Source: a virus. Taken from it: a stretch of 21,106 nt of DNA. Shown here one piece after another: positions 1,325 through 21,009 of this stretch. The DNA lies in IMG/VR virus record IMGVR_UViG_3300049855_000579, positions 1-21,106 of that record. One strand, given 5' to 3'. Positions within the stretch are counted from its first letter, which is position 1; each line of letters begins with the position of its first letter. The notes beneath the pieces are model-generated. The model was given only the letters and a program-made list of their open reading frames with translations, ran no database searches and was not told the DNA's origin. The position numbers and the translations under genes are program-made.

Positions 1325-1351
1325 CACCTCGGCTAGGTCACCGTCCAACCG

Positions 1352-1380
1352 GCCCGTAGGTGTGTCACTCACCCACGGGC
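1352..1380 (-). terminator. Hairpin after the 88-aa gene, probable terminator
   Basis: GCCCGT-A-GGTG pairs with CACC-C-ACGGGC around a 7-base loop: ten base pairs with one internal mismatch. It lies 20 bases past the stop of the leftward gene at 1400. No clear run of T follows. An outer pair of octamers, TCACCGTC (1338-1345) and GACGGTGA (1391-1398), can extend the fold. Confidence 0.45.
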
Positions 1381-1399
1381 TCGGTGCTGTGACGGTGAT

Positions 1400-1666
1400 C
1401 TACAGCTGTCCGCGGAGCTGTGTGCCACGGTCCCATTGACCCTCTGGTACTACGGACGAGTGAGGGTCGTCGAGGAGGGCGATCCAGAGGAGGGCCTGAT
1501 GGCCTTCCGTGGCCTGGACGTTATCCCACCACTGGCTGTTGATCTTCCGGATCATCAGCCACGGCGGCATGCGGTTGCCCCTAGTCCAGTTCCAAGCGTA
1601 CTCGTTGGTGAGGTTACGGATAACCCGCTTGTCGACTTGACCGGCGGGGACGGGCTCGATGGGCAT
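1400..1666 (-). CDS. Hypothetical small Trp-rich protein (88 aa)
   Basis: An 88-residue protein, unusually rich in tryptophan (seven by eye; W-N-W-T, P-P-W-L, Q-W-W-D, L-L-W-I, Q-W-D). It has no signal peptide and no segment long enough to be a clear membrane span. The N-terminus (V-D-K-R-V-I-R-N-L-T) and middle (W-L-M-I-R-K-I) look helical. I chose the ATG at 1666 because AAGGAGG stands just upstream, the strongest ribosome site of this row. It ends with TAG and is followed by a hairpin. Its promoter is at 1688-1716. No family is recognised; a protein-binding role is only a guess from the exposed aromatic content. Confidence 0.65.
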   Translation of the reverse strand: MPIEPVPAGQVDKRVIRNLTNEYAWNWTRGNRMPPWLMIRKINSQWWDNVQATEGHQALLWIALLDDPHSSVVPEGQWDRGTQLRGQL

Positions 1667-1687
1667 GGCTGCCTCCTTGATGGCTGG

Positions 1688-1716
1688 AGCGTACAACGGC
1701 AAGCCCCTCCGGTCAA
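1688..1716 (-). promoter_or_regulatory. Leftward promoter (TTGACC-N17-TACGCT)
   Basis: Minus strand: TTGACC (1711-1716), 17 bases, TACGCT (1688-1693), 22 bases before the ATG at 1666. The -35 box sits across the loop of the hairpin at 1703-1728, so the end of one gene and the start of the next share the same DNA. Confidence 0.65.
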
Positions 1717-1728
1717 CACCGAAGGGGC
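1703..1728 (-). terminator. Hairpin after the 80-aa HTH-like gene, overlapping a promoter
   Basis: GCCCCT-C-CGGT pairs with ACCG-A-AGGGGC around a 4-base loop (1714-1717): ten pairs with one mismatch. It starts nine bases past the stop at 1737. On the minus strand a weakly T-rich TTGCCGTT follows. The next gene's -35 is inside it, which may couple termination and initiation. Confidence 0.5.
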
Positions 1729-1736
1729 TATGGTGG

Positions 1737-1979
1737 TCACAGGCCGTGGAACCGGAACACGCACTTGACCGTGTTCTGGATGTCGGTCAGCTTGTAGTCA
1801 GGCTTCCTGGGCCGACCGGGGCAACGGACGACACGGTCGTACAGGTGGGACTCCGGGTCCAGGATGAGCCGGAGGCAGCTGTGCGAGATGCCGAGGTCTT
1901 CGGCGGCGTCCCTCAGGTTGCCGTAGAAGGCGTATGCTTGGTACGCCTCGGCCTTGGTGATGGTGGTCTTGGTTGGCAT
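1737..1979 (-). CDS. Small HTH-like protein (80 aa)
   Basis: An 80-residue protein. Residues 9-40 read as a helix-turn-helix: a helix (K-A-E-A-Y-Q-A-Y-A-F-Y), then N-L-R-D-A-A-E-D-L-G-I-S and a recognition-like helix (H-S-C-L-R-L-I-L). It resembles the DNA-binding half of phage HNH/intron-associated and terminase-small-subunit HTH motifs. The C-terminal half is basic (R-C-P-G-R-P-R-K-P) and could hold an AT-hook-like contact; this is inference. AAAGGA six bases before the ATG at 1979 supports the start. The promoter is at 2005-2032. It is likely a small DNA-binding regulator with unknown target. Confidence 0.65.
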   Translation of the reverse strand: MPTKTTITKAEAYQAYAFYGNLRDAAEDLGISHSCLRLILDPESHLYDRVVRCPGRPRKPDYKLTDIQNTVKCVFRFHGL

Positions 1980-2004
1980 GGTCGATCCTTTCGTGGATGA
2001 CCGA

Positions 2005-2032
2005 AGCCTACATCACCGCACCGAGCGATCAA
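2005..2032 (-). promoter_or_regulatory. Leftward promoter (TTGATC-N16-TAGGCT)
   Basis: Minus strand: TTGATC (2027-2032), 16 bases, TAGGCT (2005-2010), 25 bases before the ATG at 1979. It begins seven bases after the lipoprotein stop codon. It is the least consensus-like of the row. Confidence 0.5.
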
Positions 2033-2039
2033 CAGGCGA

Positions 2040-2507
2040 TCAGCCAGGGCCGGACGGCGCCGCAACATCGCTGTTGACCGTCGGGTAGATCACGTACGTC
2101 GACGTCCGGTCTACATCGGCCCATACAGCAGGATTCACAGGGTCAACGTAGCGAATCGTGATGGTGACCTGGACGATCCACTGTTGACTCTGGTAGTCCC
2201 ACATCACGCTGGCCGATCCACCTTCGGGCCTTGTGGCGGTCCATCCGTACGGACCGGTGTCGAGGTCGATCGTGTCACGCAGCCCGACCCAGTGGAAGGC
2301 AACAGACGTGTCGGGCTTGATCGCGTCGCCGACGATGCCACGTCGCCTCCACTTGCCGTGGTTCAAGGCAACATCATCACCGTCATACAGCACCAGTTGA
2401 CCGTCGGTCGGCACGGCGAGAGTGCGATGTGGTGGAGGGGCATCCTGGTGGCTGCTGGAGCAGCCGGCCAAGGCCGCGATGGCGGCGGTGATGAAGAGGA
2501 AGCGCAT
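2040..2507 (-). CDS. Predicted lipoprotein (155 aa)
   Basis: A 155-residue secreted protein with a classic lipoprotein signal: M-R-F, a hydrophobic stretch and the lipobox L13-A-G-C16, so Cys16 should be lipid-modified and the protein anchored outside the cytoplasmic membrane. After a Ser/Pro-rich linker (to about residue 27), the rest looks all-beta with many Thr, Val and Trp. No known domain is recognised. The upstream 51-codon membrane gene ends one base before this ATG, so the two are translationally coupled and probably act together. Possible roles are superinfection exclusion or envelope modification during infection; neither is shown by the sequence. The preceding AGGG is a weak ribosome site, consistent with coupling. 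Confidence 0.75.
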   Translation of the reverse strand: MRFLFITAAIAALAGCSSSHQDAPPPHRTLAVPTDGQLVLYDGDDVALNHGKWRRRGIVGDAIKPDTSVAFHWVGLRDTIDLDTGPYGWTATRPEGGSASVMWDYQSQQWIVQVTITIRYVDPVNPAVWADVDRTSTYVIYPTVNSDVAAPSGPG

Positions 2508-2508
2508 G

Positions 2509-2664
2509 TCAGTACCCTAGCTCTCTGAGGTGCTGGTCGATCTCATGGCAACGACGAATCTCGTCATCGCTTCTACGATCGATGTGGAGGTGGTAGCCGC
2601 GAAGCCTCGTCACGATATACGCAATCGCAACCAAGGCAACGAGTGAGGACATGATCACCGTCAT
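2509..2664 (-). CDS. Small single-span membrane protein (51 aa)
   Basis: A 51-codon gene. Residues 1-19 form a hydrophobic helix (V-I-M-S-S-L-V-A-L-V-A-I-A-Y-I-V). It is followed by a basic stretch (R20-L-R and R30-R31) and then an acidic/basic helix rich in Asp, Glu, Arg and His. The positive residues after the span suggest the C-terminus stays in the cytoplasm. GGAG stands six bases before the ATG at 2664. A second in-frame ATG four codons later is possible. The stop is one base before the ATG of the lipoprotein gene, a tight two-gene unit served by the promoter at 2689-2716. No family is recognised. Confidence 0.65.
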   Translation of the reverse strand: MTVIMSSLVALVAIAYIVTRLRGYHLHIDRRSDDEIRRCHEIDQHLRELGY

Positions 2665-2681
2665 GGTGTTCTCCAGAATTC

Positions 2682-2715
2682 TGTTGACTTTATAGTATGA
2701 TTCGTAAAGTCAACA
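2682..2715. repeat. Inverted repeat with 11-bp perfect arms, probable operator
   Basis: TGTTGACTTTA (2682-2692) and TAAAGTCAACA (2705-2715) are exact reverse complements separated by 12 A+T-rich bases. The site lies between divergent transcription units and overlaps the proposed leftward promoter. Each arm contains the TTGACT hexamer also used as -35 box at 2759 and 7629. Two-fold symmetry of this size is typical of a repressor operator (inference). Confidence 0.6.
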
Positions 2716-2716
2716 A
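2689..2716 (-). promoter_or_regulatory. Candidate leftward promoter (TTGTTG-N16-TATAAA)
   Basis: Minus strand: TTGTTG (2711-2716), 16 bases, TATAAA (2689-2694), 25 bases before the membrane-protein ATG at 2664. The -35 box is weak, but the -10 and position fit. It is embedded in the inverted repeat at 2682-2715, so a bound protein would block it. Confidence 0.45.
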
Positions 2717-2786: not shown

Positions 2787-2812
2787 GCACGACCCACACA
2801 AGAGAGGACACC

Positions 2813-3177: not shown

Positions 3178-4314
3178 ATGAGTCTGTTACCTCTCGGCGG
3201 CCGAGACTTAGGTCGCCCTCTCAAAGCGCCGAACCACGTCGTCGATGTGGCGACGCAGTTGGACTTCGATCGCTTCGTGTACGTCGCCAGCCCGAAGTTG
3301 GACGGCAATCGCTGCTTGATTCTCGGAGGCAGAGCATACACGAGCTCGATGAAGCCGTTCAGGAACGTGCGCCTGCAGAGCTACCTCGGCGACGTGCTGA
3401 ATTACTCCGCCGAGCACGACATCATGCTGGATGGTGAGCTGTACGACATCGACGGCACACACCATGCCGATCTATCTGGCATCCTGAATAGTTGTGACGG
3501 TCATATTCCCGACACGATGCGATTCTGTGTGTTCGATGCCGCCGACATGGCCGACTACTCCGACCAGTGTCGGACGATGCCGTACCAGTATCGAATCGAG
3601 CAGTACTTTCAGCACTGCATCATGATCGATCCGGATCACCGAATCGTCATACCTCTGAAGCAGCACAAAGTCGAGCGTGACGGTGATGCTTCCGCGTCGT
3701 CATGGTTCGATATGCACACCCACGACGAATCATCACCGTTCGGCCACGCCGTCGAAGGCGTGATGATTCGTCCTGTCAACATCGAGAGATCGTATGATGG
3801 ATCGCTCCTCGGAGGCTGGTACAAGCACGGGCGTTCGACAGATCGTCAGCATATCATATGGAAGCTCAAGTCATACGAGACTCAGGACGCGGTTGTCACT
3901 GCTGTTCTTCCTCGCCGTGTACTTGATCCGGTATGGCTCGAATCTCATGAGCGTGAGTACGATCTCAACGGACGGCTCAAACCGATTAAGAATCAAGATG
4001 CGTTTCTCACAACCGAGTGTGTCGGAGCGTTTCAGGTCGAGTACGAAGTGCCGTCCGGAGTATGCCACTGCGGAGCCGAGTTAGATCGGCACACGCAGTC
4101 AGACAATCACGGCCCCGTAGAAGCGATGAGGCCAGTCGAGACAGAGATCGGTTTCGGTCGCGGATTCGACATGGCAGAGCGTGATCGTCTCTGGTCGATC
4201 AGAGAGAGTCTGATTGGCAGGCATGTCGAGTTCAGACATCTGCCTCACGGTGCCATGGAGGGTGGACGAGCCCGCCACGGCATGCTGGTCCGATTCCGTC
4301 CTGACCTTGACTAA
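3178..4314 (+). CDS. ATP-dependent DNA ligase
   Basis: The enzyme seals nicks in duplex DNA using ATP, for example at Okazaki junctions during phage replication. Motif I is K40-L-D-G-N-R, with Lys40 the adenylated residue. Motif III is L-D-G-E87-L-Y, IIIa is V-F-D-A near 118, IV is V-E193-G-V-M-I-R-P, and V is W-K229-L-K231. The C-terminal part (about 300-378) carries the OB-fold signature G-F-G-R-G-F-D, then L-I-G-R-H-V-E-F and a final V-R-F-R-P-D. A small C-H-C-G pair near 296-299 is an unusual insertion, possibly metal-binding. I chose the ATG at 3178 because GGAG is eight bases upstream; a GTG six bases earlier would sit too close to that site. At 378 residues it is a compact viral-type ligase. 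Confidence 0.9.
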   Translation: MSLLPLGGRDLGRPLKAPNHVVDVATQLDFDRFVYVASPKLDGNRCLILGGRAYTSSMKPFRNVRLQSYLGDVLNYSAEHDIMLDGELYDIDGTHHADLSGILNSCDGHIPDTMRFCVFDAADMADYSDQCRTMPYQYRIEQYFQHCIMIDPDHRIVIPLKQHKVERDGDASASSWFDMHTHDESSPFGHAVEGVMIRPVNIERSYDGSLLGGWYKHGRSTDRQHIIWKLKSYETQDAVVTAVLPRRVLDPVWLESHEREYDLNGRLKPIKNQDAFLTTECVGAFQVEYEVPSGVCHCGAELDRHTQSDNHGPVEAMRPVETEIGFGRGFDMAERDRLWSIRESLIGRHVEFRHLPHGAMEGGRARHGMLVRFRPDLD

Positions 4315-4462: not shown

Positions 4463-5143
4463 ATGCACCTCGATTCCAAAGCGATCGCCGAGATCAAACT
4501 GACGATGTCTGACGGATCCGTCATGACGGCCAAGGGCCTGTGCACCTCGCTGGAACGCCGTGTTCCGTGCGGCGGCCTCGGAGCTCTTGAAAGGGTCACC
4601 GTCTCGCTCGATTTGGTCAGCCCGATCGCGTATCAACCTCACACACCCAAGTCCGTCACCACACCGACGGCGAAAGAAGGAACCATGCCGAAAGTCCAAG
4701 TCCTCCGCTACGTCCACGACGAGACCAAGTACCCGCACGCCATGCCGTCGAATCACGGCACGAAGTGGCTGTTCGAGGATATGGCCAAGGTCAAGGACCA
4801 GATCAAGACCGCCGATCCGATCAAGCTCTGCACGTCTATTCACCGCACGCCGGTGGCGGTGACGTGGAAGGCGATCGACATGCTGCAGGCCTCTCTGTCC
4901 GACTCGACTCTGGTCAAGTTCTGGCTAAAGTGGTTCGAGCACATGAACAAACATCACCGTCTCGATATCGCTACGCTCCGTATTGCGATCGATGATGTGT
5001 CGGCATTCAGCTCGTTCAAGGAGATCATCGAGCCGGCCTGGCAGCGCAGGGACGACAGCGTTCTGATGTACCAGTTCATGGCGCTGGCTCTGATCCGCCA
5101 TGGCGTCGAAATCGAGCAGCACAAGACCGATGTGTTCGGCTGA
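4463..5143 (+). CDS. Hypothetical protein with possible internal second start (226 aa, or 152 aa from 4685)
   Basis: No family is recognised. From the ATG at 4463 (GGAG seven bases upstream) the reading frame gives a short strand-rich N-terminal part of about 74 residues, a Thr/Pro-rich linker, then M-P-K-V-Q-V-L at residue 75. That internal ATG at 4685 has its own good ribosome site (GAAGGAACC), so a 152-residue product may be made as well or instead. The second part is mostly helical (for example L-V-K-F-W-L-K-W-F-E-H-M) and has no transmembrane segment. It lies between ligase and helicase genes, so a replication or repair role is plausible but unproven. The 148 bases before 4463 hold no clear promoter or terminator. 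Confidence 0.6.
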   Translation: MHLDSKAIAEIKLTMSDGSVMTAKGLCTSLERRVPCGGLGALERVTVSLDLVSPIAYQPHTPKSVTTPTAKEGTMPKVQVLRYVHDETKYPHAMPSNHGTKWLFEDMAKVKDQIKTADPIKLCTSIHRTPVAVTWKAIDMLQASLSDSTLVKFWLKWFEHMNKHHRLDIATLRIAIDDVSAFSSFKEIIEPAWQRRDDSVLMYQFMALALIRHGVEIEQHKTDVFG

Positions 5144-5149: not shown

Positions 5150-6661
5150 ATGGCACTCTACGTACATGTCGACGGCATCCGTCCGTACCAAGGCAAGCTG
5201 GCCGGTCGCGGCCTGCACAGCATCATCGACGGACCGAGTGCCGGCCCTCAGAAGCGCTGCATCATCCTGAAGTACGGTGCAGGCAAGACCTGGGTCAGTC
5301 TGATGATCGCAGATGCCGCTCGACATCGTACGCAGCAGTCGGCCGGAACGATGTTCGGTATCGTGCTGTGCAGGAAGCATAACGTCCAGACGTGGATTGA
5401 TGAAGTCAGGCAGCGCTCGTCACTCGAGCCGATCTCGTTCGATGAGTATCGTCGACTGTCGACCGCGAAGAGATTGAAGCCTGGACAGGAGCGACCGAAG
5501 ATTACGAATCGGACGGTGATCATTGCTCACCACTATGAGGCCGGTGCCTACACGAACGAGCTGGTCGGACTGATCACCGCCAGTCGCCCGTTCGTGCTGA
5601 TCTGTGACGAGTCGACCAAGATCAAGACTCCGTCGACACAGAGAACGAAGGGCGCGATTCGTCTTGCCGAAGTCCACGAAGATGCCCTCGGCACGCACGG
5701 TCTTCGTATGACTCTGACCGGCCACATGACTCCGGAGGGGCCGCACGAGTTGTGGTCACAGTTCCAGTTCGCGTTCGCCAAGCGCAACCCATTCGGCTCG
5801 TCGTACTACCAGTTCCAGAGGCAGTGGTTCGTGCTGTCGGACATGGGGTACAGACTCAAGAGCGAGTTGGCTCAGAAGTTCCGCGACCTCGCTGCACAGC
5901 ACATTCTCCGCATGACGCCTGATGAATGGTCCGGCTACGTGACTGACCTCGGCATCACGCCGACCTACGTCACCGTCAAGTACTCGCCTTCACAAGATCA
6001 GCGATCGCTGATTGGTCGCCTGTTCGATTCGTGGTCTCTTCCGGCAACGTGGGGAGACGGTGATGAAGGTCAGGACGAGCTGTACAATCACACGATCTCG
6101 CTGCATGTCAAAGCACAGCAGATCGCCAACGGCTTCTACTACACGGAAGGCAAAGTCGTCAATCGGCTGCCTGGCACGAATCCGAAGATCGAGGCTCTGA
6201 ACAGCACCCTGCAGGATCTGTTCGAGGAGAAGCGCAACCGCAAGGTCATCATCTGGTGCCACTACGATCCTGACTACACGATCGTCGGCGAGATGCTGGG
6301 CAATGCGAAGATCGGTTGGTGCAGAGGCCCCGACGTCGAGCAGTTCCGTCGGTTCCGTGACGATCCGATGACCCAGGTCATACTCATGCCCATCACAATC
6401 TCGGAAGGGTTCAACGAGCTGGCGATTGCCGATGTCGCGATCTACTACACCAACGTGTACTCGAACGAGACTCGCAACCAAGCCGAGGCTCGCATTGATC
6501 GGATGAATCAGAAGTCGCCAATCACGACCCATATCGACATCATCGGCGATAGCGCCTTCGATGAGCATGTGCTCCAATGTCTTCGTGCCAAGAACCTCAA
6601 CAAATCAGAACTCATGGCAGCCGCTGTGAAGTTCGAACTACAGCGCAAATGTGCTGTATGA
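5150..6661 (+). CDS. SNF2-like superfamily 2 helicase/ATPase
   Basis: A 503-residue ATP-driven DNA translocase of superfamily 2, close in motif style to phage SNF2-type helicases. Visible motifs are Walker A G43-A-G-K-T47, the Q/DEAH-like motif II with D153-E-S followed by I-K-T, and motif III L-T190-G-H-M-T-P-E-G with the phage-typical E-L-W-S-Q-F right after. Motif VI is N443-Q-A-E-A-R-I-D-R-M-N-Q454. Motif II reads DES rather than DEAD or DEAH, which is common in this subfamily. It probably remodels replication or recombination intermediates. The gene starts six bases after the previous stop with little Shine-Dalgarno sequence, suggesting coupled translation. Its stop overlaps the next start as ATGA. 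Confidence 0.88.
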   Translation: MALYVHVDGIRPYQGKLAGRGLHSIIDGPSAGPQKRCIILKYGAGKTWVSLMIADAARHRTQQSAGTMFGIVLCRKHNVQTWIDEVRQRSSLEPISFDEYRRLSTAKRLKPGQERPKITNRTVIIAHHYEAGAYTNELVGLITASRPFVLICDESTKIKTPSTQRTKGAIRLAEVHEDALGTHGLRMTLTGHMTPEGPHELWSQFQFAFAKRNPFGSSYYQFQRQWFVLSDMGYRLKSELAQKFRDLAAQHILRMTPDEWSGYVTDLGITPTYVTVKYSPSQDQRSLIGRLFDSWSLPATWGDGDEGQDELYNHTISLHVKAQQIANGFYYTEGKVVNRLPGTNPKIEALNSTLQDLFEEKRNRKVIIWCHYDPDYTIVGEMLGNAKIGWCRGPDVEQFRRFRDDPMTQVILMPITISEGFNELAIADVAIYYTNVYSNETRNQAEARIDRMNQKSPITTHIDIIGDSAFDEHVLQCLRAKNLNKSELMAAAVKFELQRKCAV

Positions 6662-6794: not shown

Positions 6795-7418
6795 ATGCCG
6801 TACCGCGTCAAGAAGTCCATCGACATCGACTTCGCCCATCATGTCCACGGCCATGCCGGCCCCTGCATCAACATCCACGGCCACACGTGGAAGTTCGAGG
6901 TCGAGGTGCAGGCCGAGAATCTCGGCGATGATCACTTCGTCATCGACTTCAAGGATCTGAAGACGAAGCTGCTGGAGCCGATCCACAACATGCTGGATCA
7001 CGGCTTCGCGATCTGGAACAAGACTCTGTTCGATACCGAAGGCAAGGTCGTGCACTCGTTCCAGACGATTGGCGAGGCCCTTGTCGCGACTCGCGAAGGT
7101 CGTGCTGGCAAGAATCGCTGGTTGTTCGGCGCCGATGTCCGGTCGTTCGATGATTGTGCTGGCAACATCACCGTCGCAATGCCGTCGGTCGACTCTCTGA
7201 ACGGCGCGACTGACTACTGTATCGGCGGCATCAAGATCATCGGCTTCCCGTTTCCGCCGTCGTCCGAGACTTTGGCTCGCTGGCTGTACGAGACCGCTCA
7301 CAAGGTTCTGGTGCCGGAGTACGCGCGCCTTGGCCGCACGATCCAGATCCGTCAGGCCAGCGTGTATGAGACTCTGCACCCCGTCGAGTCCGTCGCGACG
7401 TACACGGAGAACTGGTGA
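6795..7418 (+). CDS. queD: QueD-like 6-carboxytetrahydropterin synthase
   Basis: It converts dihydroneopterin triphosphate, the FolE product, to 6-carboxy-5,6,7,8-tetrahydropterin, the second step of 7-deazaguanine synthesis. Zinc-binding residues fit the family: H16 after D-F-A-H, then H28 and H30 in C24-I-N-I-H-G-H. Cys24 is the catalytic cysteine. D-F-K-D-L-K (51-56), L-D-H-G (67-70), the P-S-S-E-T-L-A stretch and the late Y-E192 also match. At 207 residues it is longer than the usual QueD of about 120. The excess is an insertion at roughly residues 75-150. AAGG is seven bases before the ATG. It sits about 6 kb from FolE and QueE but in the same transcription direction. Confidence 0.88.
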   Translation: MPYRVKKSIDIDFAHHVHGHAGPCINIHGHTWKFEVEVQAENLGDDHFVIDFKDLKTKLLEPIHNMLDHGFAIWNKTLFDTEGKVVHSFQTIGEALVATREGRAGKNRWLFGADVRSFDDCAGNITVAMPSVDSLNGATDYCIGGIKIIGFPFPPSSETLARWLYETAHKVLVPEYARLGRTIQIRQASVYETLHPVESVATYTENW

Positions 7419-7603
7419 TGACGGTGACGTACAAGCCGGTCATGCACAAGGAGTCGCAGACGATTGTCGTCGGCAAAGAAGTCGACGGCAAGCTGATGCC
7501 TCTCACCGATGCAGAGGTCACGAGAGTCTGTGCCCTCATGAATCTGACCGAGAACCCGGAAGCCGTCATCGGGCAGAACGGTCAACCTCTGCGATACGGT
7601 TAG
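7418..7603 (+). CDS. Hypothetical small protein (61 aa)
   Basis: A 61-residue protein, last gene of operon I. Its ATG shares one base with the QueD stop (TGATG), so translation is coupled; GGAG lies eight bases upstream. The N-terminal half looks like two or three strands (V-T-Y-K-P-V-M, Q-T-I-V-V-G-K-E-V) and the second half like a helix (D-A-E-V-T-R-V-C-A-L-M). No signal peptide or membrane span is present. I do not recognise a family. Coupling to QueD may mean a shared pathway, but nothing in the sequence shows that. Confidence 0.65.
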   Translation: MTVTYKPVMHKESQTIVVGKEVDGKLMPLTDAEVTRVCALMNLTENPEAVIGQNGQPLRYG

Positions 7604-8058: not shown

Positions 8059-9161
8059 CCTTCGCCAACGAATCGGAGCTGTCGACTTCTGCTGCGTCGG
8101 GTTTCTCGGACTTCGACCAGCACAAACTGCGTGACCTGACACAGTCGGCAGCCTCCATGTACATGAAGTGCCCGCAGGCATTCGTGTTCCGCTACATGTT
8201 CGGAATCACGAAGCGCAAGATCGCCAAGCCGCTGGTCGTCGGCAGTCTGGTGCACAACGGCATCGAACGCATCCTCAACTTCAAGCGCGGCGTCGTCGAC
8301 AAGCGCGACGATCCTCTGTCGCCTCCTGCCTCGATCGAAGACATTCTCGCGAAGCTCGATGACGAGTTCTCGGAGTACGTCGACGAGCTGGCATCGAAGT
8401 CCGACATGGTATCACCGTCCGAGGCCGAGGATCTGGAGTACTGCCGAGTGCAGGCTCTGGCCTGTACGGAAGCGTGGGCCACGATGTACGCCGACAGCCT
8501 GCTCGAGTGGACGATCGAGGCTGCCGAACAGGAGTTCCGTACCGTCGACTCGGCTCTGCCTGGCAGCGAGTACGATCGCCTGATCTCGACCGGCAACGGC
8601 AAGATCGATGCCCTCGTCCGTCGTGCCTCCGATCCGTCCAGGCTGTTCGTTCTGGAGCACAAGACCAGATCCAGGATGGACACACTGAATGTCGGCAGTC
8701 TGTCTCTCGACATGCAGGGTCTGTGGTACATCGCGCAGGCTCGGGCTCGGATCGACAAGCGTACGGTCGGCTTCCTGTACAATGTGATCAAGAAGCCTTC
8801 GCACCGGATGTCGGCGAAGGGGTCCGACGAGCTGCGTCGCCGGATGGTCAAAGCGATGTTGGACGAGCCGGAGAAGTACTTCGCGTTCGTCGACATTATC
8901 GCCGACAACGACGCACTCCGCAACAATCTCGACAACATGAAGCTTGTGTCGGATCAGATGCAGCATCTGGCACCGAAGACGGTGATCATGAACGTCACCG
9001 CCTGCGACAACTACGGCGGGTGCTCGTATCGAGCTCTGTGCCGTGAAGGTGCATGTGTTCGTCGGCCCGAGTCCCTCGCATCGAACCCGGCGATGGCGGA
9101 CTACGCGTTCGCTCCGCCGCATTCCGAGCTGTCAGTGGAAGGTGGTGAGTCCGATGAGTAA
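8055..9161 (+). CDS. RecB/Cas4-like PD-(D/E)XK nuclease with Fe-S cysteines
   Basis: A 368-residue nuclease of the PD-(D/E)XK superfamily, related to RecB nuclease domains, AddB and Cas4. The order of motifs is right: C39 in Y-M-K-C-P-Q-A-F; H67 in G-S-L-V-H-N-G-I-E; D185 in G-K-I-D-A-L-V; E201-H-K203-T; and a following Q221 with Y in the next turn. Cys317, Cys323, Cys329 and Cys334 at the C-terminus together with Cys39 look like the ligands of a 4Fe-4S cluster, as in Cas4 and AddB. It probably degrades DNA ends to give single strands for the recombinase next door. It starts with GTG in a GTGA overlap and its 3' end overlaps the next gene by eight bases. Confidence 0.88.
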   Translation: MTFANESELSTSAASGFSDFDQHKLRDLTQSAASMYMKCPQAFVFRYMFGITKRKIAKPLVVGSLVHNGIERILNFKRGVVDKRDDPLSPPASIEDILAKLDDEFSEYVDELASKSDMVSPSEAEDLEYCRVQALACTEAWATMYADSLLEWTIEAAEQEFRTVDSALPGSEYDRLISTGNGKIDALVRRASDPSRLFVLEHKTRSRMDTLNVGSLSLDMQGLWYIAQARARIDKRTVGFLYNVIKKPSHRMSAKGSDELRRRMVKAMLDEPEKYFAFVDIIADNDALRNNLDNMKLVSDQMQHLAPKTVIMNVTACDNYGGCSYRALCREGACVRRPESLASNPAMADYAFAPPHSELSVEGGESDE

Positions 9162-9990
9162 GTTCGCTGTGCCTGGAGCCCCTCGCAAACCGAAGCTGTC
9201 TCTCGACGGTTGCATGTTGTGGGTGTACGGCGAGCCGAAAATCGGCAAGACGACCTGGGTCAACAGCCTCGGTGGAGTCTGGTTCGTCGCCACGGAGAAG
9301 GGGCAGGAGTTTGTCGGCAGCCGCGAGCCGACGTACATCACCTCGTGGAAAGAGTTCCGCGAGTTCGTCGAGTGGATCGCCACCGCGAAGCCTGTCAAGT
9401 TCTCCGACGGCACCGACATCAAGTGGCTGTCGATCGACGTCGTCGACGATCTCCACAAGATGTGCACCGAGTTCGTCTGCAAGAGCCTCAGCGTCGAGGA
9501 TCCTGGCGAGCTGGATCACGGCAAGGGGTGGGCCCGACTCCGTACGGAATGGTACAACGTGATGAACGTTGTGCGCCGACTTCCATACGGTCTGGTCTGT
9601 CTCAGCCACGAGAAGACGGTGACGATCAAGGCCAAGGGCCAGCAGACCTCACGGGTCGAGCCACAGATCGGAGCCTCCGGCTACTCGTGGTGCCGTGGTC
9701 TAGCCGACCTGATCGTTCGGATGCATGCCGTCGACGTCCCTGAGAAGGATTCCAAAGGGAACGTCACCGGCAAGATCCGTACGGTACGTGCCCTCCGGCT
9801 GCACCCCGATTCGTCGATGGTCGCTGGCGGACGTATGTCCGAGTTCCTGCCTCCCGTTCTCGCCACTTCGATGCCGAACCCGTCGGCATCCTTGATCACC
9901 GTCCTCGCCAAGAAGGACGCTTCGCAGTCGGCCGTATCGGACGCCGTCAGCGATGCAGCCCCCCAGTCCGAAGTTTCACCCCAGTCCTGA
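9154..9990 (+). CDS. Sak4-like RecA-fold ATPase (AAA_24 type), phage recombinase
   Basis: A 278-residue RecA-like ATPase. Walker A is G26-E-P-K-I-G-K-T33, and the hydrophobic Walker B is W-L-S-I-D95 with two further aspartates. L-S-H-E-K follows later, the usual place of the next core motif. This pattern matches phage Sak4-type single-strand annealing or strand-exchange proteins. The C-terminal 45 residues are Ser/Ala-rich and probably flexible. The ATG at 9154 overlaps the nuclease gene by eight bases and has GGTGGTGAG upstream. The neighbours (Fe-S nuclease before, DUF669-like protein after) form the recombination module often seen with Sak4. Confidence 0.85.
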   Translation: MSKFAVPGAPRKPKLSLDGCMLWVYGEPKIGKTTWVNSLGGVWFVATEKGQEFVGSREPTYITSWKEFREFVEWIATAKPVKFSDGTDIKWLSIDVVDDLHKMCTEFVCKSLSVEDPGELDHGKGWARLRTEWYNVMNVVRRLPYGLVCLSHEKTVTIKAKGQQTSRVEPQIGASGYSWCRGLADLIVRMHAVDVPEKDSKGNVTGKIRTVRALRLHPDSSMVAGGRMSEFLPPVLATSMPNPSASLITVLAKKDASQSAVSDAVSDAAPQSEVSPQS

Positions 9991-13594: not shown

Positions 13595-14331
13595 CCGCCA
13601 CCGTGACCGAGCATCGCTCGTCCGCCGACCTGTTCAAGCTGGTCGAAATCTTCAACTCAGTCAAGGGAGAGGGCACTCAGTCCGGCATCCCGATGACGTT
13701 CGTCCGATTCGCCGGATGCAATTTGGCGTGTTCGTTCTGCGACACGCCGTACAATCGGAAGGCGATCGCCCTGCCGTTCCGATCCCTGATCGAGGCGATC
13801 CTGGCACAGGAGCCGGCATGGGTCGTGTTCACCGGCGGCGAGCCGTTGATGCAGCTGACTCTCGACATCACTCAGGCTCTGAAGGCCGCCGGCATTCGGA
13901 TGGCGATCGAATCGAACGGCATGATCTGGAACGAGGCTCTACTCGATCTCGACTATGTCTGCTTCTCGCCGAAGCGCTTCTTCACCGACAAGTCCAGACC
14001 GATCTCGCTCGAGAAGCAGATCAGCCAGGAGACGGTGAAGCATGTGCTGGACGGTGCCCTTCGTATCCACGAGCTCCGGTACGTGGTCCACCCCGATGAC
14101 GACGTCGACAACTTCCCTCTGCTCGATGTGCCGTCGGACCAGATCACGTTCAGCCCGATGATGAATGACAACGGCCTTCCGACCGACTGGAAGTCCGGAG
14201 ACGGCTTCGGCAACCAGTTCGGCCAGATGGACACCGCCAGCTTCAACAAGTGCATGGCCCTCGTCCACAAGCATCGTCATCGTGGCGGTCGCCTCTCCCT
14301 CCAGACCCACAAGTTCATCGGCGTCCGCTGA
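13591..14331 (+). CDS. queE: QueE-like 7-carboxy-7-deazaguanine synthase (radical SAM)
   Basis: It converts 6-carboxytetrahydropterin to 7-carboxy-7-deazaguanine (CDG) using S-adenosylmethionine and a 4Fe-4S cluster. The cluster motif is C43-N-L-A-C47-S-F-C50, the normal CX3CX2C of radical SAM enzymes. T81-G-G-E-P binds SAM, E107-S-N-G matches the QueE E-T-N-G site, and S-P-K follows near 126. The N-terminal K-L-V-E-I-F-N-S-V-K-G-E-G-T-Q-S-G is the usual QueE opening. Length (246 aa) is normal for the family. GAGGAGG four bases before the ATG is one of the best ribosome sites in the window, and the start overlaps the primase stop as ATGA. FolE follows 19 bases later. Confidence 0.92.
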   Translation: MTATVTEHRSSADLFKLVEIFNSVKGEGTQSGIPMTFVRFAGCNLACSFCDTPYNRKAIALPFRSLIEAILAQEPAWVVFTGGEPLMQLTLDITQALKAAGIRMAIESNGMIWNEALLDLDYVCFSPKRFFTDKSRPISLEKQISQETVKHVLDGALRIHELRYVVHPDDDVDNFPLLDVPSDQITFSPMMNDNGLPTDWKSGDGFGNQFGQMDTASFNKCMALVHKHRHRGGRLSLQTHKFIGVR

Positions 14332-14350
14332 CGCCAGATCGGTAATCACC

Positions 14351-15097
14351 ATGCAGAAGACTGACCCGACCGTCGGATGGACGGTCCACGAGCACCTCAA
14401 ATCAAAGGGCATCGAAACGCCGATGACCGACGATTTCATCGAAGAGAGGAGGAAGCGGTCTGCGCGGATCGTCGCGAACCTCGGCATTAAGCACGCATAT
14501 CTGGAGACCGACTGGAAGGCCGACGAACGCCTCGGTCAACTCAACTACCATGTGACCGAGATCATGAAGTCGCTCGGTCTCGACATCACTGACGACTCTC
14601 TCAAAGGCACGCCGAGCCGTGTCGCCGAGATGTTCGTCAACGAGATGTTCTCTGGCCTCGACTATACGAACTTCCCCAAGATCACCGTCATCGAGAACAA
14701 GATGGCATCAAAGGATGAGTTCGTCCTCGAGACCGGTATCTCGGTCGACTCTGCCTGCGAGCATCATCTCGTCGTGATCGACGGTGTCGCATCCGTGGCG
14801 TACATCCCCAAGGCCAAGGTGCTGGGTCTCAGCAAGATGAATCGTATCGTGCGATTCTTCGCCAGCCGTCCGCAGGTGCAGGAACGCCTGACTGCCCAGA
14901 TCGCCGAGACCATGTCGTTTCTGGTCGAGTCACCCGACGTCGCCGTCTTCATCGATGCCAGACACTACTGTGTGAAGGCCCGTGGTGTTCGTGACGCCGG
15001 ATCGAGCACGTCGACGTTCCACGGCACCGGTCGGTTCGCCGATGTGACCGACCCGATCCGTGCCGAGTTCCTCTCACGCACGAGGAAGAGATCGTGA
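14351..15097 (+). CDS. folE: GTP cyclohydrolase I (FolE)
   Basis: It opens GTP to dihydroneopterin triphosphate, the first step shared by folate and 7-deazaguanine synthesis. Zinc ligands are visible: C136-E-H-H139 and C207 in A-R-H-Y-C-V-K-A-R-G-V-R. The conserved G-L-S-K-M-N-R-I-V and R-P-Q-V-Q-E-R-L-T are also present. At 248 residues it is near the usual size with a slightly long N-terminus. Because QueD, QueE and DpdA are also here, the phage most likely uses it to feed DNA base modification rather than folate. The ribosome site before the ATG at 14351 is weak. The stop overlaps the next gene as GTGA. Confidence 0.93.
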   Translation: MQKTDPTVGWTVHEHLKSKGIETPMTDDFIEERRKRSARIVANLGIKHAYLETDWKADERLGQLNYHVTEIMKSLGLDITDDSLKGTPSRVAEMFVNEMFSGLDYTNFPKITVIENKMASKDEFVLETGISVDSACEHHLVVIDGVASVAYIPKAKVLGLSKMNRIVRFFASRPQVQERLTAQIAETMSFLVESPDVAVFIDARHYCVKARGVRDAGSSTSTFHGTGRFADVTDPIRAEFLSRTRKRS

Positions 15098-15699
15098 GAC
15101 ACTCCCATCACGGCCACCGAGTTGTCCTCCACGAGAAGGGGGTCGCAGCCGGCATCGCCGATGTTGCCAGTCGGATCGTTTCCTTATCTGGAGACGCCAC
15201 GATCGTGCCGGTGGTCGTGATGGATGGAGGCGGTCCATTCGGCCGCTCTCTCATCTACGAGATGGGTCTGGTCGCCGACATCGATCGCCGGATCAACATC
15301 ACCGTCAAGTCGTACGACGGACAGAAGCAGAAGGCTCCGACGGTGACGATGTTGTCGGAGGATCGCATACATCTGTCCGGTGCCGGTCAGTCTCGCGACA
15401 AGCAGATCGTCATCATCGATGATATCATCGAGACTGGCAACACGATCGCAGCGATTCTGGAACACGAATGGATCGCTCTCGAAGTGACGGCTAGGCCGAT
15501 CCTTCTTGCCTCGCTGCTGACGAAGTCACCGTCATGCAGCGACCCTCTTCAAATGCGACTCTCAGATCGAGACCGCACCACCAAAGGTCTCAAGCACATC
15601 AGTGCATACGACCTGCCTTCACGCCTATGGGTTTACGGCTTCGGCATGGACCTGGACGGCAAACACAGGGACCTTCCCTTCATCGCGGAGAAGTCATGA
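15094..15699 (+). CDS. HPRT-like purine phosphoribosyltransferase
   Basis: A 201-residue type I phosphoribosyltransferase that joins a purine base to PRPP. The PRPP loop is I-V-I-I-D109-D110-I-I-E-T-G-N-T117. The first loop is D44-G-G-G-P-F-G. The C-terminal I-S-A-Y-D-L-P-S-R-L-W-V-Y-G-F-G-M-D and R-D-L-P-F-I closely follow the hypoxanthine-guanine PRTase pattern (f-V-V-G-Y-G-L-D then Y-R-N-L-P). The Lys of that region (K168) is kept. It starts with GTG overlapping the FolE stop and ends in ATGA with DpdA. This fixed place between FolE and DpdA suggests a part in 7-deazaguanine DNA modification, for instance guanine recycling (inference). Confidence 0.85.
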   Translation: MRHSHHGHRVVLHEKGVAAGIADVASRIVSLSGDATIVPVVVMDGGGPFGRSLIYEMGLVADIDRRINITVKSYDGQKQKAPTVTMLSEDRIHLSGAGQSRDKQIVIIDDIIETGNTIAAILEHEWIALEVTARPILLASLLTKSPSCSDPLQMRLSDRDRTTKGLKHISAYDLPSRLWVYGFGMDLDGKHRDLPFIAEKS

Positions 15700-16526
15700 C
15701 CTTCAGATACCATCTCATCGCCAACGTCGGATCGTACAAGAATCGCGACGGACTGGTGTTCCGATACCCGAACAGCCTCGCGCTGGCACATCTGTACGGT
15801 CCTCACGGTCTGTACTCCGGTGCCCTGAAAGCGAAGGTCGCCCTGGGTCACCGTATCATCCTCGACAACGGTGCCCATGAGGGCGTCGACATGGACATTC
15901 AGTCGTACGCCGAAGTCGTGAAGGATCTCAAGCCGGCGGTCGTCGTGATGACCGATAAGGTCGGCATCAGCAATGTCGGCAGTCGTGCTCGGTCTCTCCA
16001 TCTGCTCAACTACGTAACGCCGAAGGATCTGCCTGGCACGAAGTTCATGTACACGCCCCAAGGCGAGGACAAGGATCAGGTTCTGGCCGACTACGAGTGG
16101 GCTCTGAATCGTCTCGATCCGTCCGAGTTCATGCTCGGGCTCGGTCAGGGCTATCTGTGCTGGGCCGACAAGGATCGTCCCGATACGGTCAACCTCGAAG
16201 ACACTCGGGTGCCGATGGTCGAGGCGGTGATGAAGCTGCCCAACGCCGACAAGTTCGAGTTCCACCTTCTCGGCGCTCGGTGGTCCGCTGGCCAATCTCG
16301 ATACGATCAGTTCGCGAACATCAGCGGCGTCGACACGATCAAGCCGGTGACGTGTTCCGAGTTCCGTACGTACTACCCGACTCGTCCGCCGATCCGATGC
16401 ATCAATCGTGAAGGGTATCACGAGATCGACGAGGCGTACCTCGCCGCTAACATCGAGACGTTCTGCGAGTCGTACCACGCCGATTGGTGCCGCGGTTTGG
16501 TGAGCCAGTTCCTGACCGAGGTGTGA
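15696..16526 (+). CDS. dpdA: DpdA-like DNA guanine transglycosylase
   Basis: A 276-residue relative of tRNA-guanine transglycosylase, of the short phage DpdA type, which exchanges guanine in DNA for a 7-deazaguanine base. The TIM-barrel signature I-I-L-D57-N-G-A-H-E-G corresponds to the D-S-G-G-F region of TGT enzymes. M-T-D87-K, F-M-L-G-L-G-Q-G (145-152) and F-H190-L-L-G-A follow in the family order. D213 in I-S-G-V-D-T is a good candidate for the nucleophile. GGAG is five bases before the ATG, which overlaps the PRTase stop. The neighbours FolE, QueE and DNA polymerase fit a DNA-modifying role rather than tRNA. Identification is by pattern, without a database search. Confidence 0.85.
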   Translation: MTFRYHLIANVGSYKNRDGLVFRYPNSLALAHLYGPHGLYSGALKAKVALGHRIILDNGAHEGVDMDIQSYAEVVKDLKPAVVVMTDKVGISNVGSRARSLHLLNYVTPKDLPGTKFMYTPQGEDKDQVLADYEWALNRLDPSEFMLGLGQGYLCWADKDRPDTVNLEDTRVPMVEAVMKLPNADKFEFHLLGARWSAGQSRYDQFANISGVDTIKPVTCSEFRTYYPTRPPIRCINREGYHEIDEAYLAANIETFCESYHADWCRGLVSQFLTEV

Positions 16527-16527: not shown

Positions 16528-18399
16528 GTGATCTCCACGACCCTGCCCGAACGATGGATCGCCATCGACACCGAAACCACCGGACTGAATCGGTGGCGAG
16601 GCGATCGGCCATTCTGTATCGGCGTGTGGCTGCCGAACGGCACGAAGCAGTTCTACTGGCGAGACGACATGGAGCGTATGCGCGACACCTTGGCCGATCC
16701 GTCGATCGACAAGGTGTTCGCCAATGCGAAGTTCGATCTGCGCATGCTGGAGGCTGCCGGCTTCGTCGTTCGTGGCAGGGTCTGGGACATCTTCATCTTT
16801 GCCCACTTGCTGGATGGTCGCGACTCGAACAACATCTCGTTGGACTTCATATCGAAGAAGTACCTGCCTTCCTCAATGAGGAAGATCACCGCTGAGATCG
16901 ATGATTGGTTCAAGGCGAATCCTGGCGCCAATCCGAAGGACAAGGACTTCAGTCGTCTATCGAAGGACCTCGTCGAGAAGCGGTGCACTGGTGACGCCGA
17001 GCTGACCGGAGCGTTCTTCCGTAAGGTGTATTCGACGGTGGCCAAGCTGTTCCCGTTCCTACTCGAACAAGAGCACCGTCTTCTGCTTGTTGTCAAGAAG
17101 ATGGAGGATCGCGGTGTGCGCATCGATCAGAGTGAGATCGAGCGTCAGTACGACTACTTCAACGAGATCGTTGAGGAAGTGATTGATTGGTTTGAGTGCT
17201 ACGAGGGCCGATACTATTTCAGCCTGACGTCTCGTACCGATCAACTCGCCGCCGTCAACCGTGCCGGCATTGCTGATCTGCTGATCGACACTGATCCTGA
17301 CACCAAGAAGGAACGGATGTTCCTGGACGACTACCATCTTCGGAACACCCATCACCCTGTCGCGCATATGCTTCTGGTCGGCAAGGCTGCCATGAAGATG
17401 CGCGACACATTCCTGGGCCAGATGGAGCGTCTGGCCACGGACGGTGTCCTCCATCCATCATACAATCAGATCGGCACGAGCACCGGTCGATTCTCCTGCT
17501 CTGCTCCGAACCTGCAGAACATACCTATTGAGGGTGACCGTCGTACGGCGTACACCGAGGCTGAGGCAGACGAGATGATCGACATGACGGGTATCAACTA
17601 TGCTCCGCATGTCAAACGTATCTTCCCGGTTCGTGATGGGTATGCCCACATGCATACTGACAAGAAGCAGGCCGAAATGGTCATGCTCGCTCACTATACG
17701 AACGACCCGATCATGAAGGCAATCTTCCAGCGCGGTGAATCGATCCACGACGGTATCTGTAGGATGCTGTACGGCGAGTGGACCAAAGGCCTCAAGACCA
17801 GAACGAAGGCAGTCGTGTTCGGATATCAGTACGGAGCAGGGCTGCCGACCATCGCCAAGAAGATTGGTGGCACGATTGACGACGCTCGTAAGGCCAAGGC
17901 CAAACTTGAGACGACGTTCCCCTCGCTGCCGAGGTGGCGCCGCGAACTGAACGAGCGTATCACCGAGCTCGGATTCGTGCAGACGATCCACGGTCGTCGA
18001 CACTACATCCACATGAGCGACGCCTATAAGGCGGTGAACTACATGTGCCAAGGCTCGGTCGGTGATGAAATCAAGAACCGCATGATCGCCATCGATGACT
18101 ATATGACCAGCGGCGGTCACGACGGTCGAGTAGTGATGAACATCCACGACGACATTGTGACTGAGTTCCCGAAGCACGAGGCACAGAAGCACTCGATCGA
18201 GATCGCTCGCATCATGAATGAGGCCGGAGCCGACTATCGCCTGCCTCTGCCGTCATCCGCCGACATCACGTACACTCGTTGGGCCGACCTGCACGAGATC
18301 AAGGATATGGCCGCCTTCGAGAGTGAATGGTCACCGTCAATCCTCGAACCCAAGTATCGCAGCAAGATCGCTGCCGAAAGAACCAAGGTGCACGCATGA
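16528..18399 (+). CDS. Family A DNA polymerase with 3'-5' proofreading exonuclease
   Basis: The 623-residue replicative polymerase, like Pol I without the 5' nuclease domain. Exonuclease motifs are D14-T-E16, N66-A-K-F-D70 and D156-A-E. Polymerase motifs are T-G-R-F-S (319-323), motif A H-T-D378-K-K-Q-A-E383, motif B R425-T-K427-A-V-V-F431-G-Y-Q-Y-G, and motif C N-I-H540-D541-D542. Motif A normally reads D-Y-S-Q-I-E-L-R; here Tyr-Ser is Lys-Lys and the final Arg is Met. The catalytic Asp and the steric-gate Glu remain. Phe431 is the position linked to dideoxynucleotide discrimination. The GTG start at 16528 has GAGG six bases upstream; later starts would remove exonuclease motif I. Confidence 0.92.
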   Translation: MISTTLPERWIAIDTETTGLNRWRGDRPFCIGVWLPNGTKQFYWRDDMERMRDTLADPSIDKVFANAKFDLRMLEAAGFVVRGRVWDIFIFAHLLDGRDSNNISLDFISKKYLPSSMRKITAEIDDWFKANPGANPKDKDFSRLSKDLVEKRCTGDAELTGAFFRKVYSTVAKLFPFLLEQEHRLLLVVKKMEDRGVRIDQSEIERQYDYFNEIVEEVIDWFECYEGRYYFSLTSRTDQLAAVNRAGIADLLIDTDPDTKKERMFLDDYHLRNTHHPVAHMLLVGKAAMKMRDTFLGQMERLATDGVLHPSYNQIGTSTGRFSCSAPNLQNIPIEGDRRTAYTEAEADEMIDMTGINYAPHVKRIFPVRDGYAHMHTDKKQAEMVMLAHYTNDPIMKAIFQRGESIHDGICRMLYGEWTKGLKTRTKAVVFGYQYGAGLPTIAKKIGGTIDDARKAKAKLETTFPSLPRWRRELNERITELGFVQTIHGRRHYIHMSDAYKAVNYMCQGSVGDEIKNRMIAIDDYMTSGGHDGRVVMNIHDDIVTEFPKHEAQKHSIEIARIMNEAGADYRLPLPSSADITYTRWADLHEIKDMAAFESEWSPSILEPKYRSKIAAERTKVHA

Positions 18400-19470: not shown

Positions 19471-19793
19471 GCAAGAAACTCAAAGTCCTAACCGACGGCG
19501 TGAAGGAGGTAACGGTCAGTGGCGAAGCACGCTTCCTGCCGACTCCCGACCTCGTCAATCATCCGCCACACTACAACGGTCATCCGAGCGGTGTCGAATG
19601 TATCACCGTCATCGAGCATATGAATCTGTGCCTCGGCAATGTGATCAAGTACATCTGGCGAGCCGACGACAAGGGCAACGACATCCAGGACCTGGAGAAG
19701 GCCGAATGGTACCTCAAGCGCGAGATCGCCAGACGGAAGCGGATGACGAAGACGAACACGACGAGGGTCGTCAGGATCCGCCGAGGACGGTGA
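19467..19793 (+). CDS. DUF3310 family protein (108 aa)
   Basis: The signature H32-P-P-H-Y-N, then G-V-E-C-I, N-V-I-K-Y-I-W-R, D-I-Q-D-L-E-K-A-E-W-Y-L-K-R-E-I identifies the small phage family DUF3310. The C-terminal part of phage T7 gp1.7, a nucleotide kinase, belongs to this group; most members have no tested function. The first 28 residues are an extra, less conserved lead, and the last 15 are basic. GTG is used as start, with a strong AAGGAG five bases upstream, in a GTGA overlap with the RuvC-like gene. A link to nucleotide metabolism is plausible from the family and operon. Confidence 0.85.
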   Translation: MSKKLKVLTDGVKEVTVSGEARFLPTPDLVNHPPHYNGHPSGVECITVIEHMNLCLGNVIKYIWRADDKGNDIQDLEKAEWYLKREIARRKRMTKTNTTRVVRIRRGR

Positions 19794-19939
19794 CGTTGTT
19801 CAGAGGGCAGAGGCTGGCCAAAAGATCCCACGAGTGCCTGCATTGTGGCCGTTCGATCTATAAGGTAGAGTTCTACTTCGTGAATGTGCTCCTGCGGTAC
19901 CGCAGGAGCACATTCAAATCGTGCTGCAAGGCCGTATGA
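19790..19939 (+). CDS. Mini zinc-finger protein (49 aa), last gene of operon II
   Basis: A 49-residue basic protein with C16-x2-C19 and C45-C46, a CxxC...CC arrangement that could hold one zinc ion. It starts with GTG overlapping the DUF3310 stop (GTGA), like several genes of this operon, with GAGG three bases before. Codons 31-42 coincide with the perfect 36-bp palindrome at 19881-19916, so this coding stretch (V-N-V-L-L-R-Y-R-R-S-T-F) may be shaped by the DNA or RNA structure rather than by protein function. The terminator hairpin begins within its stop codon. I am moderately sure it is translated. Confidence 0.5.
   Translation: MTLFRGQRLAKRSHECLHCGRSIYKVEFYFVNVLLRYRRSTFKSCCKAV
19881..19916. 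repeat. Perfect 36-bp palindrome
   Basis: TGAATGTGCTCCTGCGGT is followed directly by its exact reverse complement, with the centre between 19898 and 19899 and no spacer. It lies in the 3' part of the last gene of operon II. As RNA it would form a very stable hairpin but without a following U-tract; as DNA it is a two-fold site of unusual length. Function is unknown. Confidence 0.8.
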
Positions 19940-19961
19940 CCCGATGGTGATCCATCGGGTC
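19938..19961 (+). terminator. Terminator-like hairpin at the end of operon II
   Basis: GACCCGATGG pairs perfectly with CCATCGGGTC around TGAT: ten base pairs starting in the stop codon at 19937-19939. TACGTATTGT follows, a weak U-tract. Position and stem make it the likely main terminator of the rightward operon. Confidence 0.6.
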
Positions 19962-20006
19962 TACGTATTGTACACATTGTCACGGAATTATTAAGCCCTT
20001 AACAAG

Positions 20007-20078
20007 GGCCCTAGGATCGAAGATTTTGGCCGGGCCCATCCAATTACATCAATCCGGCCGTTCTTCGATTCTAGGGCC
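20007..20078. repeat. Long nested inverted repeat in the convergent junction
   Basis: The outer arms, 20007-20023 and 20062-20078, are 17 bases each and match except for one G-T wobble; the inner arms GGCCGG (20028-20033) and CCGGCC (20054-20059) pair around a 20-base loop. A small competing hairpin, GCCCTT-AAC-AAGGGC (19995-20009), shares bases with the left outer arm, so two exclusive folds are possible. No open reading frame of note crosses it. Confidence 0.7.
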
Positions 20079-20116
20079 GAATCCGCCTAACCCTCACGGA
20101 TTCCAGGAGTTAGGAA

Positions 20117-20141
20117 ACCCCGGCCAAATCGTGGCCGGGGT
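20117..20141. terminator. Bidirectional terminator-like hairpin
   Basis: ACCCCGGCCA pairs perfectly with TGGCCGGGGT around AATCG. In the leftward direction the stem is followed by TTCC and comes 34 bases after the stop of the lipoprotein gene at 20176, so it most likely terminates that unit. It could also stop rightward read-through. Confidence 0.6.
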
Positions 20142-20175
20142 CTCACAGAGTAATACAGATGTGTCGCTTTCGTGG

Positions 20176-21009
20176 TTATGTCTTGCCTCTGATCCTGTCG
20201 ATCAGGTTGCCGAGCCTGCCATGATTCGTTGACGATGCCTTCTTGATGTCGTCGAGACTCGAACTGATCAACTGCCTCGTCTCGTCCGGCATTGCCGAAG
20301 CAACTTTGACCAGCAGGTCCTCAACACGATCGCCGTGGTCCGCTGTCGATCGAACGGACTGGATCAAGGCACGAATCAGGACGATCACCGTCACGACGGC
20401 GGCTAGTCCAGCGACTACGATGCCGATCTTGATTGCGATCGGAACCCACGTAGGGGCGCTGTATGATACGGCAAATAGCACGACCATCGAAGCCGCTCCG
20501 ATGAGGGCTCTCTTCTTGCCGGCTCCGAGAGGTAGGAACCAGGCAGCGATACAGCAGATAGCGAAGACGACCGACGAGAGTGCCATACCGAATCGGCTGA
20601 CCAATCGGATTCGTTCCTCGGTCAGCTTTCGTTCAGCGGTGGCTCTCTCGTCGGTCGCCTTCTTCTCCAGGGCCTTCGATTCGGCCTCCAAGGTGGAGGC
20701 TCGTGCTCGGAGAGATGACGCCTGCTCGCTCAGAACGGATGCTTCATGTGATGTTGCCTCGGCCCGGTCCCTCCAACCGGCGGCATTGTCTTTGAACGAC
20801 TTGAGATCGACTTCTGCCTTCTGGCGAGCAGCTCTCTCGATGTCGACGTTCGTCGTGGCGGATGCCAGACGGTCACGAAGATCGGCGATGACGGAGGCAG
20901 CCGTGTCGGAACCAGGAATGGACGAGGCAGCCGCTCGTACAGCCTGGTCGGCACAACCAGACAGCATCACCGTCATCGCGATGAAGATGAGTGCGACGAA
21001 TCGGTTCAC
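20176..21009 (-). CDS. Lipoprotein with coiled coil and three membrane spans (277 aa)
   Basis: The N-terminus is a lipoprotein signal with lipobox L16-S-G-C19. Residues about 40-135 form a long coiled coil rich in Ala, Glu, Arg and Lys. Then come three hydrophobic segments at about 140-161, 168-186 and 190-213, and a charged C-terminal part to 277. The coiled coil would be outside the cytoplasmic membrane and the C-terminus should end on the inner side after three spans (inference). It starts with GTG overlapping the stop of the upstream membrane gene (GTGA). A role in lysis, envelope remodelling or as a spanin-like protein is possible, but no known family is recognised. The reverse-strand reading of similar length has no protein-like features. 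Confidence 0.75.
   Translation of the reverse strand: MNRFVALIFIAMTVMLSGCADQAVRAAASSIPGSDTAASVIADLRDRLASATTNVDIERAARQKAEVDLKSFKDNAAGWRDRAEATSHEASVLSEQASSLRARASTLEAESKALEKKATDERATAERKLTEERIRLVSRFGMALSSVVFAICCIAAWFLPLGAGKKRALIGAASMVVLFAVSYSAPTWVPIAIKIGIVVAGLAAVVTVIVLIRALIQSVRSTADHGDRVEDLLVKVASAMPDETRQLISSSLDDIKKASSTNHGRLGNLIDRIRGKT

Follow-up and report, generated by a model that had tools for sequence, protein, structure and literature searches.

An eight-base word, TCACCGTC, recurs throughout the 21,106-nucleotide fragment of a virus genome that we analyzed here (IMG/VR record IMGVR_UViG_3300049855_000579, hereafter the window). Our data indicate that this word is real, strict, and lineage-specific, that it has been selected beyond codon usage, and that it forms part of a wider pattern among phages. 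Judging from homology and from known priming sites, it is probably the template recognition site of the phage primase for lagging-strand starts. An exact count yielded 29 copies, 17 on the plus strand and 12 on the minus strand, and thus the initial annotation, which had estimated some 28 copies (about 16 and 12 in the two orientations), was essentially right.

When we shuffled the window with its dinucleotides preserved, an expectation of 1.95 copies was obtained (100 shuffles, highest value 5), and Markov models of order 1, 2, and 3 predicted 1.8, 1.8, and 3.0 copies. The expectations of the order 4 and order 5 models (6.4 and 14.5) were higher because these models already absorb the word. 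Among all 8-mers, TCACCGTC ranked first for over-representation at Markov orders 1–4. Synonymous-codon shuffling of each open reading frame (ORF), in which the protein and the codon usage are held constant, gave 8.9 ± 2.0 copies and never more than 15 (100 shuffles), compared with the 29 observed. A codon or composition artifact is ruled out by this shuffling. The copies within ORFs (24 of 29; 12 sense, 12 antisense) fall in several frames, in line with the earlier suggestion that protein sequence does not explain the word. That other 8-mers might be equally abundant after correction for codon and trinucleotide bias was not borne out by the ranking and the shuffled maximum. Nearly all one-mismatch variants were present at about background level, the most frequent neighbors being TGACCGTC (7 copies, 2.8 expected) and TCACCGCC (7 copies, 2.0 expected). 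The base preceding the word is a purine in 28 of 29 copies (A 18, G 10, T 1), as had been noticed before, and the base following it is A in 16. Since flank conservation is limited to this purine and the weak following A, we could rule out that the word is a piece of a longer repeat. Here and below, the words were picked for being the most enriched among many candidates, and their individual z-scores should therefore not be taken as corrected probabilities. The tests for even spacing and strand bias were run on the words after selection and count as separate evidence.

The window record is only a fragment and, therefore, enrichment in the rest of the genome can be checked on relatives alone. 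With a profile of the primase-helicase, we located the nearest relative (G001, 59,722 bases), which is syntenic with the window. The primase-helicases of the two are 56% identical and the deazaguanine genes are common to both. TCACCGTC was scarcely enriched in G001 (7 copies vs. 3.4 expected). This relative has a word of its own, CAACCGTT (36 copies vs. 2.8 expected), which is spread across the whole record in early and late genes, and the two words have the end ACCGTY in common. Scans with the polymerase, the primase, or the DpdA-like protein singly, or with the two DpdA-like proteins aligned, retrieved no close relative beyond G001; an alignment of the polymerase pair led to G001 again and to distant loci. 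A search of genome contigs aimed at the host of the window phage did not find any relative.

The portal protein of G001 led us to CAjan-like phages. CAjan and 9g carry the same kind of module as the window, and the highest-ranking words in them are TAACCACA and TGACCACA, i.e., TGTGGTYA. This word was present in every tested phage of the Queuovirinae (CAjan, 9g, and kin) and in their cousins, with 25–57 copies each in CAjan, 9g, JenP1, SLUR25, Dru_SM1, Ec1-ASingh, PSTCR4, PAJD-1, MMDA13, MiCath, BUCT548, and a Vibrio phage. The G+C content of these genomes ranges from 37% to 59%, and the hosts are E. coli, Providencia, Pseudomonas, Sphingomonas, Vibrio, and Stenotrophomonas. KL1, Halfdan, phiAxp-1, and IMEAB3, which infect Burkholderia, E. 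coli, Achromobacter, and Acinetobacter, carry 14–24 copies of TGTGGGCA, and TGTGGTYA is absent or nearly so from them. No comparable word was found in Lambda, PaMx74, DLP4, A2, and PSA.

In nearly all relatives the same-strand copies are evenly spaced, with coefficients of variation (CV) of the spacing down to 0.17–0.5. Values of 0.30 (9g, plus strand), 0.32 and 0.49 (JenP1), 0.38 and 0.45 (PSTCR4), 0.42 and 0.42 (MMDA13), and 0.17 (Halfdan, minus strand) were determined. Control words of equal count had a median CV of about 0.9–1.0, and mostly less than 1% of them were equally even. The same-strand copies of the relatives typically lie 1.6–3 kb apart, with medians mostly of 1.6–2.8 kb. Exceptions were the plus strand of MiCath and the minus strand of 9g, which have long gaps, and the minus strand of PAJD-1 was intermediate. 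In G001, CAACCGTT occupies both strands among the early genes, and 17 of the 20 copies in the late half lie on one strand (sign test, p 0.003). Its minus-strand copies had a CV of 0.53, and of 0.40 in the late part (random about 0.95; p 0.0008 and 0.0002); for the whole minus strand 0.2% of the control words were equally even. In all 16 genomes encoding a primase of the PrimPol type (see below), the GTGG-form word is found more often on the late-gene strand than on the other. G001 agrees with its CAACCGTT, giving 17 of 17, a count that does not represent 17 independent trials because the genomes are related.

The candidate reader of the word in the window is a primase-helicase (10652–13594, plus strand), which involves an N-terminal CxxC...CxxC zinc-ribbon-like motif, a TOPRIM primase domain, and an MCM-type AAA+ helicase. 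Pfam matches were obtained for MCM (1.4e-8) and Toprim_3 (5.7e-7). A profile of four relatives of this protein matched the T7 gp4 primase (1nui, 6e-8), DnaG (2au3, 2e-12), the zinc-domain structure of DnaG (1d0q, 3e-5), and MCM2 (1e-12). From these matches we classify the protein as a T7/DnaG-type TOPRIM primase fused to an MCM-type helicase; T7 gp4 likewise combines a TOPRIM primase with a helicase. On the lagging-strand template, the T7 primase recognizes the sequence 5'-GTC-3' (PMC9198812). The window word, TCACC-GTC, ends in the same GTC, and its agreement with the known site comprises these three bases only. The end of the G001 word is GTT in template sense. GTT is the core of the T4 primase site.

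No PrimPol was found in the window fragment. The primase of CAjan matched the Pfam helix-bundle domain of the NrS-1 polymerase (1.6e-6) and NrS-1 primase structures (4e-7), and the PrimPol motifs DxD, SxH, and D are conserved in CAjan-type primases. By these matches, the CAjan-type enzyme is a PrimPol homologous to that of NrS-1. NrS-1 PrimPol starts primers de novo at a template site of eight bases, TTTGGTTA, and at the shorter GTGG/GTGA, with GTGG being used more efficiently than the eight-base site (PMC8718748). The Queuovirinae word TGTGGTTA is one base off TTTGGTTA (7 of 8 bases match) and contains GTGG. Similarly, CCCGTGG, which includes the GTGG of the NrS-1 PrimPol site, ranks among the most strongly enriched words of 9NA (Salmonella) and KP13-27 (Klebsiella), two phages located by matches to the N-terminal region of the CAjan primase. 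The case for a primase site is stronger for the PrimPol group than for the window. When we compared the sister genera of CAjan and 9g, the primases shared 32% identity and the polymerases, helicases, and DpdA proteins 54–69%. The far higher divergence of the primase suggests a primase replacement.

On this basis, we propose the following scenario, in which we infer the primase as reader, the template strand, the primer sequence, and the use of the sites in vivo. TCACCGTC would be maintained at intervals along each strand to provide a lagging-strand start point every 1–2 kb. In template sense the site would read 5'-(R)TCACCGTC(a)-3', and the TOPRIM primase-MCM helicase would read it once the lagging-strand template is unwound. 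The enzyme may recognize the 3' GTC as T7 primase does, with the last C being recognized but not copied. The primer would begin pppAC(GGUGA) and would be extended by the family A polymerase. The G001 primase may use CAACC-GTT likewise, and in the Queuovirinae and their cousins the unrelated NrS-1-type PrimPol would do the same job at TGTGG(T/G)YA.

A number of observations weigh against this assignment. Even spacing is marginal in the window itself, where the same-strand copies gave CV values of 0.64 and 0.62 and 7% and 9% of the control words were equally even. Word spacing is not clearly even in 9NA and KP13-27, and most other relatives with a TOPRIM-MCM protein have less strict words that lack even spacing. 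To our knowledge, TOPRIM primases recognize three to five bases and not eight. T7, whose short sites ((G/T)GGTC) differ from the eight strict bases of the window word and whose helicase is not of the MCM type, shows no clearly even distribution of its primase sites or of its top words. The template sense of the window word was chosen partly because it agrees with the T7 rule and with the bias toward the late strand in one relative only. In Mantel tests, word distance correlated with the protein distances of Sak4, Cas4, and the clamp (r of 0.77, 0.72, and 0.69) at least as well as with that of the primase (0.51), and within the TGTGGTYA group it correlated significantly with no protein. Finally, in the NrS-1 genome the 8-mer occurs just twice (PMC7102993), compared with about 15–57 mostly evenly spaced copies here, and such a primase therefore need not entail an even lattice; the window phage, moreover, differs from NrS-1 in using a TOPRIM primase.

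Other readers of the word have to be considered. A phage-specific Chi-like signal, which the phage's own helicase/exonuclease and Sak4 would read strand-specifically so that resection leads to a switch to recombination-dependent replication, is in keeping with the genes for an SNF2-type helicase, a PDDEXK exonuclease, and Sak4 in most carriers. Chi too acts on one strand, and the Sak4 and Cas4 distances track word distance at least as well as the primase does. However, tblastn detected no Cas4 in phiAxp-1 and no Sak4 in MiCath, two phages that carry the word; the agreement with the NrS-1 PrimPol site would become a coincidence; and we know of no phage exonuclease of the PDDEXK kind that reads an octamer. 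We consider such a signal unlikely. The established Chi sequence (GCTGGTGG) is likewise a strand-specific enriched octamer, but the phage words are not host-specific, they are several-fold more enriched, and they are evenly spaced. Phages can enrich the host Chi (PMC3784561), and the length of an octamer would suit a host Chi site carried to survive RecBCD or AddAB of the host. The E. coli phages, however, bear TGTGGTYA (CAjan, 9g, JenP1) or TGTGGGCA and have GCTGGTGG at background, and a single word is shared by phages whose hosts belong to many genera. These two findings exclude the host Chi in the relatives, and as an overall explanation it is hardly credible.

Sites of another dispersed DNA-binding protein of the phage, such as a stoperator-type repressor, a nucleoid-like protein, or a partition protein, would also be strict, dispersed, and lineage-specific. 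The stoperators of cluster A mycobacteriophages, with about 30 dispersed copies and a lineage-specific sequence, resemble the phage words in this respect. But stoperators are mainly intergenic and follow transcription, whereas the phage words lie mostly inside genes and in both orientations; with 12 sense and 12 antisense copies, mostly in ORFs, the window word was rejected as a member of the stoperator class. In addition, no immunity system was recognized in the window, and evenness per strand is unexpected for a protein that binds double strands, which makes a binding protein of this kind improbable. Strand-specific, dispersed nicks are present in the virion DNA of T5-like and phiKMV-like phages, but here both strands are used and no nickase candidate was identified, so that nick sites appear very improbable. 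The word might also be the recognition context for deazaguanine insertion by DpdA, since the window and G001 have a DpdA-like gene together with queD, queE, and folE. Yet five word-bearing genomes (KL1, Halfdan, phiAxp-1, IMEAB3, BUCT548) lack a detectable dpdA match, which excludes DpdA as the reader and leaves this explanation next to no credit. A single packaging or partition site fits poorly with the copy number and the mostly even spacing in these genomes. Of the roles proposed in the initial annotation, the binding site of a phage protein was thus retained, with the primase as that protein and with priming as a function not named there; a host Chi site, a DpdA target, and a single packaging or partition site were not.

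The gene content of the window is that of a replication and nucleotide module. Replication genes encode an ATP-dependent ligase, the SNF2-type helicase, the PDDEXK exonuclease, a Sak4-like protein, the primase-helicase, a family A DNA polymerase (16528–18399, plus strand; phrog_17, 1.3e-91), and a RuvC-like resolvase. Deazaguanine genes (queD, queE, and folE for GTP cyclohydrolase I) and a phosphoribosyltransferase gene are located at 6795–7418 and 13591–15699; no queC was recognized in the window. The DpdA-like protein (15696–16526, plus strand), which we rejected as reader of the word, shares 38% identity with the G001 protein at the equivalent place. It gave no Pfam or PHROG match, and its name therefore rests on context and residue pattern.

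Three copies of TCACCGTC, at 1338–1345 (plus), 1391–1398 (minus), and 2655–2662 (plus), were mapped to no gene. The copy at 2377–2384 (plus) is antisense in orf155, the one at 3679–3686 (minus) lies in the ligase gene, and those at 4596–4603 and 4954–4961 (both plus) lie in orf254. The SNF2-type helicase gene contains three copies (5512–5519, minus; 5970–5977, plus; 6056–6063, minus), queD one (7168–7175, plus), and orf62 one (7420–7427, minus). Two copies each are found in the PDDEXK exonuclease gene (8412–8419, plus; 8978–8985, minus) and in the Sak4-like gene (9615–9622, minus; 9896–9903, plus). The primase-helicase gene has three (11663–11670, minus; 11817–11824, plus; 12269–12276, minus). 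The copy in queE (14031–14038, minus) is the sole one preceded by T. Further copies are located in folE (14682–14689, plus), the phosphoribosyltransferase gene (15299–15306, plus; 15339–15346, minus; 15526–15533, plus), the polA-type gene (18331–18338, plus), and the DUF3310 gene (19603–19610, plus; 19786–19793, minus). The last two, at 20385–20392 and 20967–20974 (both plus), are antisense in orf277.

Fusions of a TOPRIM primase with an MCM helicase are widespread, both among metagenomic phages and among those of Microbacterium and Arthrobacter. The enriched words of other contigs with this fusion were CTTGCAG, CTCGCAG, TCCGGT, CTCCTTA, TCCCTAC, AGTTTTAA, and CGAGCTCA, and they were mostly uneven in spacing. 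Several of these phages (G015, G012, locus L009, G013) have words ending in GCAG (CTTGCAG, CTCGCAG, ACCGCAG), which were also mostly uneven. A 17-kb phage contig (G014) carries 29 copies of AGTTTTAA (2.9 expected) and G016 carries 29 copies of CGAGCTCA (3.6 expected), which includes the palindrome GAGCTC; both are unevenly spaced.

Our search of the open-access literature, which covered the words as well as the distribution of primase sites, did not find a description of this pattern. Whether large phage groups, with either a PrimPol or a TOPRIM primase, keep a genome-wide even lattice of eight-base primase start sites, and whether a TOPRIM primase can have an eight-base site, is evenly balanced in our judgment. 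Lagging-strand starts are normally taken as loosely set by very common tri- to pentanucleotides. If the lattice is real, regularly spaced strict octamers would imply that the positions of lagging-strand starts are fixed in the genomes of some phages. Okazaki start positions, the preferred fork direction, and primase specificity would then be readable from the genome, and specificity could be predicted from sequence for many uncultured phages. The word may also account for part of the codon choice in the phages that carry it, and the E. coli phages CAjan and 9g would offer an immediate test.

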